Shown here one piece after another: positions 777-5,802 of a stretch of 64,000 nt of DNA. How positions within the stretch are numbered: position 1 is the first letter of the stretch; every line of letters starts with the position of its first letter. Below the pieces are notes generated by a model. That model searched no databases. It was not told the DNA's origin and saw nothing but the letters and a program-made list of their open reading frames with translations. The translations under genes were made by a program, and so were the position numbers. This DNA is from a bacterium ADurb.Bin236 (GTDB taxonomy: Bacteria > UBP15 > UBA6099), in contig MWCD01000012.1 of NCBI GenBank assembly GCA_002069885.1, forward strand, positions 1 to 64,000, in the 5' to 3' direction.

Positions 777-1655
777 TTAATCAATGATTCTCGATAGGGC
801 TTCCTTGTATTTTTCTATGGTATTATCGATAACATCCGGCGGAAGCTCAGGCGCGGGCGGCTTCTTATTCCAGCCCATGCTTTCCAAGTAATCGCGGACA
901 TACTGCTTGTCGAAACTGCGCTGAGGTCCTCCAGCCTGATACTCGTTTACCGGCCAAAACCTTGAAGAGTCCGGAGTAAAAGCTTCATCTATAAGAATCA
1001 ACTCTCCGTCTGAAATTCCGAATTCGAATTTGGTGTCCGCTATGATAATGCCTCGACCGAACGCGTAGTCGGCGGCAAACGAGTACAGCTCAAGGCTTAT
1101 ATCGCGAACCCGTTTTGCCATATTTTCACCGACTATTTGACACGCATCGTCGAAAGGAATATTTTCATCATGCTGCCCCGCCGGCGCTTTTGTCGAGGGA
1201 GTAAATATGGGTTCGGCCAGTTTTTCCGACTCCTTCAAGCCTAAAGGCATACTTATGCCACATACCGACCCTGTCCTCTTATATTCATTCCATCCTGAGC
1301 CGGAAATGTAACCGCGGACTATCGCCTCAATTTGAACAGGCTCGGATTTCCTGACGATTACAGCCCTGCCTTTCAAATTATGATCGAGATCGTCGCCGCG
1401 CAATGAAGACAAGTCTTCTTGAATAATGTGGTTGGAAATAATTCCTCGGGTTTTTTCAAACCAGAAGTTGGACATTTGCGTGAGGATGATTCCCTTGCCC
1501 GGAACCGGCGTCGGCATTACAACGTCAAAAGCCGAAAGACGGTCGCAAGCTACGATAAGCAACTTATCGCGATCTTCTGTTTGATATACATCGCGCACTT
1601 TTCCTCTTTTAACAAGTTCCATGCCGAGCAGTTCAGATTCAAAAACAGCTTTCAT
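777..1655 (-). CDS. purC: Phosphoribosylaminoimidazole-succinocarboxamide synthase
   Basis: SAICAR synthase joins aspartate to CAIR with ATP in step 8 of purine synthesis, in the cytosol. The 292-residue product is the normal size for the longer bacterial/yeast-like form. It has the N-terminal KRGKVRDVY and DRLSAFDVVMP blocks, the middle VRGYISGSGW motif and the C-terminal DEAFTPDSSRFWP signature. The ATG lies one base beyond the stop of the upstream chorismate-synthase-like gene (TGAGATG), so the two are probably translationally coupled. All signature motifs look intact, so a normal enzyme is expected. Its partnership with two odd neighbours rather than other pur genes is the unusual point. 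Confidence 0.93.
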   Translation of the reverse strand: MKAVFESELLGMELVKRGKVRDVYQTEDRDKLLIVACDRLSAFDVVMPTPVPGKGIILTQMSNFWFEKTRGIISNHIIQEDLSSLRGDDLDHNLKGRAVIVRKSEPVQIEAIVRGYISGSGWNEYKRTGSVCGISMPLGLKESEKLAEPIFTPSTKAPAGQHDENIPFDDACQIVGENMAKRVRDISLELYSFAADYAFGRGIIIADTKFEFGISDGELILIDEAFTPDSSRFWPVNEYQAGGPQRSFDKQYVRDYLESMGWNKKPPAPELPPDVIDNTIEKYKEALSRIID

Positions 1656-1656
1656 C

Positions 1657-2985
1657 TCAATACGCCGCCTTTCTCAAAGATTGATACCCATAATGAGATA
1701 TCAGACTGTCCAGCAGCACGAGAGCCGCATAGTTCTCCGCAATCGGCCATATTCTTCCCACAATGGTCGGATCACGGCGAGTTATCGCGGCGAGCGTTGA
1801 TGTTTCAAGGGTATATTTGTCTATGGTTGTCTGTGGCTTGTCGATTGTAGGCGTTGGTTTTACCGCAAGGCGCACTATTATGGGCTGGCCCGTTGACAAG
1901 CCTCCCGTTACGCCTCCTGCGTTATTTGTGTCAAATATCACTTTGCCGCCTTCCGAACGCATCTGGTCATTGCTCTGTATTCCGGTCATGTCCTTGACGG
2001 CGAATCCCGCCCCTATTTCCACCCCCTTAACTGCGCCGATGCCGAGCATGCGCCCAAGTTCGGAGTCGAGCTTGTCGAAAACCGGTTCTCCGAGTCCGGG
2101 GGGAACGCCGAGAGCGACCACTTCGACAACGCCTCCAGATGAGTCGCCTGTGTTTGTAATCCGGTTGGCGGCGCGCGTCATTTCCTCCGCGCATTCGATA
2201 TCGGGGCAGTTTACAATATGATGAACGCCGTATTTGTCTTGTGTCTCTTCAGATGAGAAAACTGGCGTTCTCGCTCGTATTTCATCGATCTCGTTTTCTA
2301 TCTCCGCGAATACTTTCATTTTTTCGAGAAATCTCATATCCATTGTGATTCTCTTGCTCACATAGATTTCCTGATAGAAAGGATCATTATCGCATCGCAT
2401 TTTCTTATATGATTCCGTATATGTGAAAGCTCTTTCATGCTCTATCTGTCCACAGCTTACCCCGGCGAGTTCAGTGATGTATGAGAAAACGGTTATTCCG
2501 TGATCTTTAAGAATTTTTTTCGCAATATATCCTGCGGCCACTATCGGCGCAGTATATCGCCCGCTGAAAATTCCCGCCCCGACTGCGTCGTCGTCCGGGC
2601 CGTATTTCATGAACGACGCGTATGACGCATGGCCCGGCCTCGGAGTGCGGTTCGTATCTTGGTACTGCTTCACATGGATGAAATGACGATCAAGATTAGG
2701 GATGACAATCGTCATTGGGGTTCCATTCGTATAATTCCTGTTTCCGGCGTTTTCAATGGTGTCCGCCGCGTTCAACCCTGTGAATATCACAGGCAGATCC
2801 GGTTCTTTTCTAGGCGAGGATAGCTCGTCGGCTCCCGGTTTTCTCAGGAGAAGATCGGCGTATATCTCCTGTTCGCTGAACAATATTCCCGGCGGCAAGC
2901 CTTGCACAGTCGCCGTCAGTCCCTCTTGATACGAGCCTCCGGAAACTGTCACTTGAAAATTCCTTCCGATATGGCATCCGAACAC
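1657..2985 (-). CDS. Divergent chorismate synthase paralogue lacking the GESH histidine
   Basis: The 442-residue product aligns along its length with chorismate synthase, the FMN-dependent last step of the shikimate pathway. Visible blocks are an N-terminal GLPPGI, LRKPGADELSSPRKEPD, TNGTPMTIVIPNLD, RPGHASYASFMKYG near residue 115, a clostridial-like FSGRYTAPIVAAGYIAKK, and the C-terminal NNAGGVTGGLSTGQPI and VKPTPTI. The normally invariant N-terminal GESHG reads GGSYQ, so one of the two proton-transfer histidines is Tyr. The C-terminal GRHDP block reads TRRDP. It is about 50-80 residues longer than usual. The second histidine (RPGH) is kept. It may be an altered-function paralogue or a poorly active synthase. 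It is followed one base later by purC. Confidence 0.75.
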   Translation of the reverse strand: MFGCHIGRNFQVTVSGGSYQEGLTATVQGLPPGILFSEQEIYADLLLRKPGADELSSPRKEPDLPVIFTGLNAADTIENAGNRNYTNGTPMTIVIPNLDRHFIHVKQYQDTNRTPRPGHASYASFMKYGPDDDAVGAGIFSGRYTAPIVAAGYIAKKILKDHGITVFSYITELAGVSCGQIEHERAFTYTESYKKMRCDNDPFYQEIYVSKRITMDMRFLEKMKVFAEIENEIDEIRARTPVFSSEETQDKYGVHHIVNCPDIECAEEMTRAANRITNTGDSSGGVVEVVALGVPPGLGEPVFDKLDSELGRMLGIGAVKGVEIGAGFAVKDMTGIQSNDQMRSEGGKVIFDTNNAGGVTGGLSTGQPIIVRLAVKPTPTIDKPQTTIDKYTLETSTLAAITRRDPTIVGRIWPIAENYAALVLLDSLISHYGYQSLRKAAY

Positions 2986-3154: not shown

Positions 3155-5095
3155 CTAAAGAGCGGGTATCAACTTTTCATAGTCCTCAACCGATCCGCCG
3201 CCAAAACACACGTTGATAATCTCGGCTCCCAGAGGGTCAAGTTCGGCCGACTGAAACTGCGCCAGTTGCTCCTCGAAAAAAGCCTGAAAAACAGCGGCTC
3301 CTCGGTCGTAAGCTTCGGGGCCGACTTCCGGCTGTGTGTCAACATGAAGGAACAAGCGGTCAATCATTCGGCCTTCAAGTTGAAGTTGGCGAGGGGTATA
3401 GCCGAGCAGCGGACAGCGCGCCGGTCGCAGTTGTTCGGAGCGGAAATTGGCGGCGCCGCGCCTCGCCAGATAGTCGCGCGCTATCCATTGCGGCATGAAC
3501 CCGACCTTCCACGCTCCTATGTGCTGATTGGGGCACAGGATGTGGCGCATCCGCGAATGTTGGACGAACTGCTTTAGAAGCAGGTTGGCGTGGTCGATTT
3601 TTCTGCCTGTAGCGAAAGGCCAGTATGAGCCTACGCCTTCGCTGGTCATGCCTTCGGTGTCAACGATACTGGGATTGTCGTGTCCGCGAGGGGACACCAG
3701 ACGCCACAGCCAAGCAAGCGCGGGCGGAAGCAGATGGAACATGCCTATAATTCCATACGTGGGGCGCTCTTTCGTGCAAGGAGGGGTGCGAACTCCGAAG
3801 CTGCGGATATCGACCGACACGGAATCGGAGACTGCCTTTGGAAAAGACTCTCTTGGTATGATTACGCGCGGGTTGGGACAGGGGGCGCCGGGCGCGTCCT
3901 GAATGTGTTCCCATATTAGCGCTCGGCTGCCCGGAACAGTGTCGATGTTTAGGAACAAAAGATTTGTGGGCGGTTCGGCGGTAAGCCTTTCTAGATTCAA
4001 GTCCGTGCCGTAATGCTCAATGTGGTTGACTCGTATGAACCATGCGTCTTCAGCGTCGCAAACGCGCATTTTTCCGGAATCGTTCTGAATAGATGGGTGA
4101 CACATAGCCATGTCGTCCGTGACGGCGAGCAGTTCGCAGCTTCTGGGGACTTCAAGAAATACACTTTCGCCGGTTATGATGTTTTCTCCGAGCAGAAGCC
4201 TGCCGTCCGGGCGGCGGTGCGCCTGCTCTAGCATTTCACTTTTGCCTCCGCCGCTGGCGCCCTCATGCATGATGGTCATTATGTTGTCGTACGGGGTGAC
4301 CACTTGAACAGTCGAACAGTGCGCGGTAATCCAGCCTTCCCGCTCGCCTAGCGCGAGCAGGGCTCCGTAAATCCCCTTCTTTGCGCTGGGACCCGGATAC
4401 AGGTTAAAAGAGAACACTTCGTGCAGATTCTCCTTCCTGTTGTGAGCCACCACTTGACGGCCTTCAAAGCGCGTGTGCCTGAACATCGGCGCGACATACA
4501 GAATAACGCGCGGCGAGTAGTCATCGGGAATGTCGCTCAAAGGAATAATTCCTTGTAGCATCGCCAACCCTAGCGCGAAAAATCCGGTGTTCTCAGGCGC
4601 GACGGCAAGAGCTTCGAAACCCATTCCCGGCCGGCCTGCGACAAACGCGTATGCTGCAAGCTTCTGTTCTGCCAGCCAGTCGAATACCTCCGCCCTCAAT
4701 GGATCAAAATCCTCGCCGTATCTCTCCTTGAAAGTTTCTTTGTCCGTCGGCGACGAATCAGCGATTAACATGCAATCCGGGTCGCGCCTTCTCATGTAAG
4801 GTTCGGTGTAATTAACCGCAACTCCGTTCCTGACACGCATCACTTCAGCCTCGACCACGCGAGTTCCGTCCGGCAATTCGCTACAGACCTTCATCATTCT
4901 GCTTCCGGGCCCGCCGCACGCAATATCTATCAGTTCGTCAATGCCGCTTGCGACTCGCACACCCGGACTTGCTTCAAATACGCGCCGCAACTCTTCGGGC
5001 GGATTAAGCTTTTTCCATGCAGGCGCATCCATAACTAGTTGTGATGCCGCCCTAGCATACACATCGCGCTCTTTTGATTGACTATATTCTCTCAT
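3155..5095 (-). CDS. P-loop protein resembling PEP carboxykinase (DUF4914-type)
   Basis: 646 residues, no signal peptide. A P-loop EGASGGGKSEM near residue 280 resembles the kinase-1 loop of ATP-dependent phosphoenolpyruvate carboxykinase. Further blocks such as NQHIGAWKVGFMPQWIARDYL toward the C-terminus match my recollection of the uncharacterised DUF4914 family; that assignment is from memory and not searched. A nucleotide-dependent enzyme is a reasonable inference, but the substrate is unknown. It starts the minus-strand run that continues 170 bp later into the chorismate-synthase-like gene and purC. Its leader holds tandem terminator hairpins, which suggests regulated read-through. The start has GGCGG a few bases upstream. 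Confidence 0.65.
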   Translation of the reverse strand: MREYSQSKERDVYARAASQLVMDAPAWKKLNPPEELRRVFEASPGVRVASGIDELIDIACGGPGSRMMKVCSELPDGTRVVEAEVMRVRNGVAVNYTEPYMRRRDPDCMLIADSSPTDKETFKERYGEDFDPLRAEVFDWLAEQKLAAYAFVAGRPGMGFEALAVAPENTGFFALGLAMLQGIIPLSDIPDDYSPRVILYVAPMFRHTRFEGRQVVAHNRKENLHEVFSFNLYPGPSAKKGIYGALLALGEREGWITAHCSTVQVVTPYDNIMTIMHEGASGGGKSEMLEQAHRRPDGRLLLGENIITGESVFLEVPRSCELLAVTDDMAMCHPSIQNDSGKMRVCDAEDAWFIRVNHIEHYGTDLNLERLTAEPPTNLLFLNIDTVPGSRALIWEHIQDAPGAPCPNPRVIIPRESFPKAVSDSVSVDIRSFGVRTPPCTKERPTYGIIGMFHLLPPALAWLWRLVSPRGHDNPSIVDTEGMTSEGVGSYWPFATGRKIDHANLLLKQFVQHSRMRHILCPNQHIGAWKVGFMPQWIARDYLARRGAANFRSEQLRPARCPLLGYTPRQLQLEGRMIDRLFLHVDTQPEVGPEAYDRGAAVFQAFFEEQLAQFQSAELDPLGAEIINVCFGGGSVEDYEKLIPAL

Positions 5096-5430: not shown

Positions 5431-5802
5431 TCATTCTGCAGCCAACACAAGAGAATCCATTACAAAGATAATAACGCGCTCTCCGGTATGAGTGCTGATA
5501 TCCGTATGAAGACTTTTCACTTTTCTGTTCGTAATATCTTGAATAACTATCTCGAGCAGCGTTCGTCCCTTTTCGATCAGTTTTGTTCGCACCTGTTTTA
5601 TGAGAGCCTGACCATCAGGGTCGCCTTCGGACTTCGCCAAATGCTTCTCTGCCGGGGTAAGAACACCGCTCAACCTTACTAAAATCATGTCGTCAATTAT
5701 GTATGTTTTGGTTTCCTCCGGCCCGCGCCCCATATACTCCTTTTCAAATTTCACAATGGCTTCGCTGATGTCGGCCTCAATCTGGCCTTTTGTCCTAATC
5801 AT
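5431..5802 (-). CDS. DUF2294 domain protein
   Basis: A 123-residue soluble protein. It carries the characteristic run KGQIEADISEAI, FEKEYMGRGPEETKTYIIDDMILVRL, GVLTPAEKHLAK and the C-terminal SLHTDISTHTGERVIIF, which match the DUF2294 family at normal length. The family function is not established. GGAGGGG lies about 9 bases before the ATG. It forms a monocistronic unit ending at a strong intrinsic terminator. Confidence 0.85.
   Translation of the reverse strand: MIRTKGQIEADISEAIVKFEKEYMGRGPEETKTYIIDDMILVRLSGVLTPAEKHLAKSEGDPDGQALIKQVRTKLIEKGRTLLEIVIQDITNRKVKSLHTDISTHTGERVIIFVMDSLVLAAE

Follow-up and report, generated by a model that had tools for sequence, protein, structure and literature searches.

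A clade of chorismate synthases in which tyrosine takes the place of the GESHG histidine, encoded in some genomes beside PEPCK or DUF4914 genes

Chorismate synthase completes the common precursor of the aromatic amino acids by an FMN-dependent elimination that involves no net redox change, and it is a target for both antimicrobials and herbicides. Catalysis in the described enzymes is ascribed to an established pair of histidines, His17 of the GESHG motif and His106 of the RPGH motif, together with Asp367 of an RxD motif (PMC2386126; PMC7144000; PMC3509576). In the proposed mechanism His17 protonates the leaving phosphate (PMC2386126; PMC7144000), and one paper gives this residue as conserved in every known species (PMC2386126). 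Replacement of His106 by alanine lowers activity about 20-fold (PMC3509576), and an arginine has been suggested as an alternative acid in ordinary enzymes (PMC12697075). A literature search on chorismate synthases without the GESHG histidine found nothing relevant.

The stretch of DNA analysed here (the window, 64,000 nucleotides) carries an aroC gene of this latter kind, within a set ordered MpsC - DUF4914 - aroC - purC that is encoded on one strand throughout. The aroC gene lies 169 bp after the DUF4914 gene and one base before purC, and no regulatory RNA near the operon was found in Rfam. The features discussed below are as follows.

5431 to 5802, minus strand: MpsC family gene (PF10057, 140 bits), outermost of the conserved set on its upstream side
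3155 to 5095, minus strand: DUF4914 protein, a candidate nucleotide-dependent enzyme of PEPCK fold (PF16260, 998 bits)
4232 to 4270, minus strand: P-loop of the DUF4914 protein, MHEGASGGGKSEM, in register with the PEPCK P-loop in a profile alignment that is weak alone
1657 to 2985, minus strand: aroC, a GGSYQ-type (His17-less) chorismate synthase of 442 residues with a GTG start
2926 to 2940, minus strand: GGSYQ motif, residues 16-20, with Tyr19 in place of His17 (N. crassa numbering)
2674 to 2688, minus strand: variant-specific RHFIH loop, residues 100-104, with two histidines, H101 and H104, that never vary within the clade
2629 to 2640, minus strand: RPGH, residues 116-119, keeping the second catalytic histidine, of the His106 type
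2551 to 2565, minus strand: SGRYT, residues 141-145, with Ser and Arg kept and the Glu of the usual SARET replaced by Tyr144
2212 to 2457, minus strand: insertion of about 80 residues (177-258), helical, which the alignment shows in the variant clade only
1768 to 1782, minus strand: TRRDP, residues 402-406, with Arg403 and the catalytic Asp405 kept
777 to 1655, minus strand: purC, SAICAR synthetase (NF010568, 426 bits)

The window AroC matches TIGR00033 over its full length (311.6 bits, cut-off 212.2) as well as PF01264 (313 bits, cut-off 27), and just misses the stricter NF003793 (317.8 against 321). Its AlphaFold model (pLDDT 88.7, pTM 0.91) gave 28 significant fold matches in the PDB, all of them to chorismate synthase, with TM-scores normalised by target of 0.79-0.89. 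The GTG start is supported by relatives whose proteins begin with M[IFL]GC at the corresponding site, and the features picked out by an earlier sequence-only reading, namely GGSYQ for GESHG, TRRDP for GRHDP, a retained RPGH and a length of 442 residues, are all confirmed in the open reading frame. The counterparts of His106 and Asp367 (H119 and D405) are both invariant among the variants, and the position of His17 is Tyr in the window and in all aligned variants. The protein is filed here as a chorismate synthase because His17 is a conserved residue of the known mechanism and does not define the activity.

A scan of GTDB species genomes returned 196 relatives, of which the nearest 80, from MAGs, were kept. 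All 80 carry G[GA]SYQ, RPGH and TRRD, as established by pattern, by inspection of N-termini by eye or by Tyr in the alignment, and the same motifs occur in every same-order genome that has a full-length copy. The relatives are spread over Planctomycetota (mostly Phycisphaerae), Fibrobacterota, Omnitrophota, Ratteibacteria, Armatimonadota, Spirochaetota, Lentisphaerota and other phyla, and across these they share 72-79% identity with the window protein, which is high for such a phylum spread and suggests horizontal transfer. A branch with support 100 sets the variants apart from the other enzymes even when the motif, insertion and loop columns are removed. The window gene is a member of a distinct clade of chorismate synthases, and this clade is large and previously unremarked, with Tyr always replacing the supposedly invariant His. 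Sequencing error and pseudogene formation were rejected as explanations, given that the motifs are shared by the same-order genomes and by all 80 relatives and that dN/dS for the closest pair is about 0.17, a value that reflects purifying selection.

Active-site columns were compared between 51 His-type enzymes and 30 aligned variants. The column of the GESHG histidine is His in all 50 His-type enzymes in which the position is aligned and Tyr in 30 of 30 variants, and that of the SARET glutamate is E in 48 of 51 His-type enzymes and Y in every variant. In all, the variants have changed E17 to G, H19 to Y, G20 to Q, E144 to Y and H/S404 to R, they have kept S18, R48, R116, H119, S141, R143, R403 and D405, and they have gained the invariant residues C4, R100, H101, H104 and W413. 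The sequence-only reading had a catalytic histidine missing and listed the altered GRHDP beside the altered GESHG; the loss at GESHG stands, whereas the GRHDP histidine is not a catalytic one, because the 51 His-type enzymes have H, S, A or T there, with the adjoining R and D invariant. The change from GRHDP to TRRDP was accordingly rejected as a catalytic loss, and judged by these columns only one catalytic histidine, His17, is missing from the window protein. That His17 has gone together with two glutamates suggests rewiring and not a single mutation. The RHFIH loop provides a candidate substitute acid or phosphate ligand in H101/H104, which are invariant in 47 variants and not conserved in His-type enzymes; the loop is a low-confidence part of the window model (pLDDT 54), in which the insertion helices (183-200, 202-209, 219-230, 233-237 and 245-252) have high pLDDT. 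Compared with known AroC (EC 4.2.3.5; PF01264, TIGR00033; for example 1QXO, 4LJ2, 5Z9A, 7RCA), the variant shares the fold, the arginines and serines of the FMN/EPSP site, the RPGH histidine, the RxD aspartate and a genomic link to EPSP synthase, but is only about 30-43% identical to His-type enzymes, has Tyr for His17, is without both flanking glutamates, and adds the 80-residue helical insertion and the loop with its two invariant histidines.

The absence of a residue said to be universal (PMC2386126) would be in keeping with an inactive pseudoenzyme or a regulatory homologue. This is very improbable, since the rest of the catalytic and phosphate-site residues do not vary among 47 variants, the gene is under purifying selection, and it is the sole copy in most genomes. 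Among 43 variant-carrying genomes examined, 41 have no His-type aroC, and the variant is alone in four deposited complete chromosomes, CP070715 (genome G046), CP070675 (G054), CP070728 (G060) and CP070806 (G070). Two variant copies are present in three of the 43 (G001, G050 and G074) and both forms in two only (G073 and G076). In a sample of 148 genomes from the phylum of G046, four had the variant without a further match, and none of the genomes listed had both forms, a mutual exclusion expected of genes that do the same job.

The variants also co-occur with the shikimate pathway. EPSP synthase scored above the cut-off in 25 of 30 variant genomes tested and aroB (DHQ synthase) in 26 of 30, while chorismate-using PF00425 enzymes were present in 25 of 26 variant genomes, with two in the window's own. 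An EPSP synthase gene (aroA) lies directly upstream on the same strand at 30 of the 80 loci and within 6 kb at 42 (about 0.2 by chance). Sole occurrence, mutual exclusion, linkage to EPSP synthase and the presence of chorismate users together make a working chorismate synthase the most likely function of the variant, which in nearly all carriers would place it in core aromatic biosynthesis. The suggestion in the sequence-only reading of a variant pathway in place of plain housekeeping is to this extent not supported, and the gene is no deviant beside a canonical enzyme; the GGSY form as the only aroC in many genomes is the main part of what that reading had itself set against its proposal.

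A changed function, in which the same fold and reduced FMN would catalyse another phosphate elimination on an EPSP-like substrate, the cluster with the PEPCK-like gene and purC forming a separate pathway, would account for the very long branch that separates the variants from all His-type enzymes in the tree and for the many clade-specific invariants (C4, R100, H101, H104, Y144 and W413). It could also draw on the two genomes that retain a His-type copy and on G001, where the cluster copy is a second one. In G073 and G076 it is the His-type copy that stands next to other shikimate genes, so that the variant there could do something else. Such a change is improbable, given that the variant is usually the sole family member in genomes with EPSP synthase and chorismate users and that EPSP synthase is its commonest neighbour. 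The two forms truly coexist in G076: on contig C82 (locus L145) a GGSYQ aroC precedes an aroA - His-type aroC pair by about 7.8 kb, and the stretch between them has an open reading frame that by eye is aroE-like.

The window gene very probably encodes a working chorismate synthase whose active site has been rebuilt on the side where phosphate leaves. Tyr stands in the place of His17, the proposed general acid, and Gly and Tyr in those of the two nearby glutamates, of GESHG and SARET; the loop with two invariant histidines and the helical insertion of 80 residues are additions. The retained His106, RxD aspartate and Ser/Arg residues should allow protonation of FMN N1 as usual, and removal of the C6 proR hydrogen through N5 would likewise proceed as usual. 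The departing phosphate might take its proton from Tyr19, from Tyr144 or from one of the loop histidines, or might leave as an Arg-stabilised anion; Tyr19 is the simplest candidate for the proton donor. Among the points against this reading is the loss of about 20-fold in the His106Ala enzyme, which leads one to expect a slower enzyme wherever a catalytic histidine is absent, unless something compensates. The locus represents a variant of a known enzyme that is of mechanistic interest, and no new kind of system; a natural Tyr clade that apparently serves as the sole enzyme offers a direct test of the need for a general acid and of its possible replacements.

In the window's own genome (G000) no second PF01264 gene was found, and a canonical second aroC there was accordingly rejected. 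EPSP synthase was not detected in this 92.6% complete genome and is present in the genus-mates G001 and G002, and the window copy may or may not be the only source of chorismate in G000. The sequence-only reading had called the gene a paralogue, which is right insofar as the sister genome G001 has two copies, one in the cluster and one stand-alone, although both are GGSYQ and neither is canonical. G002 and G003 have the stand-alone type only and G000 the cluster copy only, and in the tree the window copy is sister to the genus's stand-alone copy (support 99).

These distributions leave some room, at a lower probability, for a sub-functionalised paralogue, with GGSYQ enzymes being chorismate synthases in general and the copy in the MpsC-DUF4914-aroC-purC set a specialised second one, for instance condition-specific or bound to a PEPCK-like partner. 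The possession of both copies by G001 and of the stand-alone type alone by G002 and G003 fits this, as do the cluster purC, a third homologue that occurs only with the cluster, and genome G050, which likewise has an aroA-linked and a PEPCK-linked copy. On the other hand, with the cluster copy as its only one G000 would use it as the general enzyme, unless another copy lies in an assembly gap. Nor do cluster-type and aroA-linked copies form two clades, an arrangement that was looked for and not seen, with eight changes on the tree. The second copy in G050, that beside PEPCK (L048:3387-4700), reads GASYQ and not GGSYQ, the other being linked to EPSP synthase.

The DUF4914 protein is probably a PEPCK-superfamily enzyme, as the sequence-only reading had supposed. 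All 50 PDB fold matches listed by Foldseek for its model are PEPCK, with E-values reaching 7e-8, albeit from a poor model (pLDDT 44) and at low TM-scores. Direct sequence search against the PDB gave no match, a profile search gave at best E of about 1, to ATP-PEPCK, and hhalign against PEPCK returned a probability of 0.6%, though with the P-loops aligned in register. In comparison with PEPCK (GTP type PF00821, ATP type PF01293), DUF4914 proteins share a PEPCK-like fold and P-loop, have KKG and HCS stretches similar to those of ATP-PEPCK, and take the place beside aroA/aroC that true PEPCK holds in other genomes. They differ in having no significant PDB sequence match and in going unrecognised by PEPCK models: neither PF00821 nor PF01293 reports the DUF4914 gene in G000, for which Pfam gives DUF4914 alone. 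A true PEPCK of the GTP type is encoded elsewhere in the window's genome, and DUF4914 is additional to it. A role as sole PEPCK was rejected on this ground and on that of G062, which is without the GTP type and has ATP-type PEPCK. A literature search on the DUF4914 family found no paper. The present results give this family of unknown function a concrete hypothesis, that of a PEPCK-type enzyme tied to aromatic synthesis.

The neighbourhood recurs in part. The whole MpsC-DUF4914-aroC-purC set is also together in G001, and other loci show the orders aroA-PEPCK-purC-aroC (L033), aroA-MpsC-PEPCK-purC...aroC (L054), aroA-MpsC-DUF4914-aroC (L102), DUF4914-aroA-aroC (L079), MpsC-aroC-PEPCK (L031 and L048) and PEPCK-aroC-MpsC (L099); a further DUF4914 gene directly follows aroA in G043. 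Within 6 kb of variant aroC, PEPCK is found at 8 of 80 loci (chance probability about 6e-11), MpsC at 6 of 80 (about 8e-8) and DUF4914 and purC at 2 of 80 each (about 0.02 each), all of these being overstated because loci were taken as independent. The conserved neighbourhood that had been proposed therefore survives as a recurrence of PEPCK or DUF4914 beside variant aroC, but its purine link comes down to three purC neighbourhoods (window/G001, L033 and L054), and purine involvement is unsupported. The window purC is an ordinary family member but the third homologue in its genome, the PF01259 (SAICAR synthetase) genes of G000 being at 777-1655 of the window, C1:152912-153595 and C2:116815-117441, and the window type is confined to genus members with the cluster (two genomes).

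The PEPCK-like DUF4914 gene beside aroC in the window would probably be connected with the PEP used by EPSP synthase or DAHP synthase. A more ambitious and rather unlikely proposal is that several phyla have a distinct late shikimate pathway, in which a chorismate synthase that does without the supposedly invariant general acid shares its locus with EPSP synthase and with a PEP-forming enzyme of its own (true PEPCK or DUF4914). The three might act as a PEP-channelling unit, and the genomes concerned would have archaeal-type DHQ synthase as well.

Archaeal-type 3-dehydroquinate synthase (PF01959, 415-428 bits) was found in six of seven genomes tested, all seven being variant carriers: G000 (C19:6563-7567), G006, G046, G054, G059 and G070. 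Among 14 control genomes PF01959 matches occurred in archaea only. Classical aroB was not found in G046 and G059, which have the PF01959 gene, and neither classical aroB nor PF01959 was found in the deposited complete chromosome of G060 (L070), which has EPSP synthase and variant aroC.

A published Phycisphaerae genome survey makes no mention of aromatic synthesis. In Phycisphaerae a long secretin-domain gene (PF00263) often lies just downstream of variant aroC on the opposite strand (L036, L057, L062, L070, L073, L077, L088, L089 and others), and several Phycisphaerae loci have a subtilase-dockerin gene upstream of aroA.
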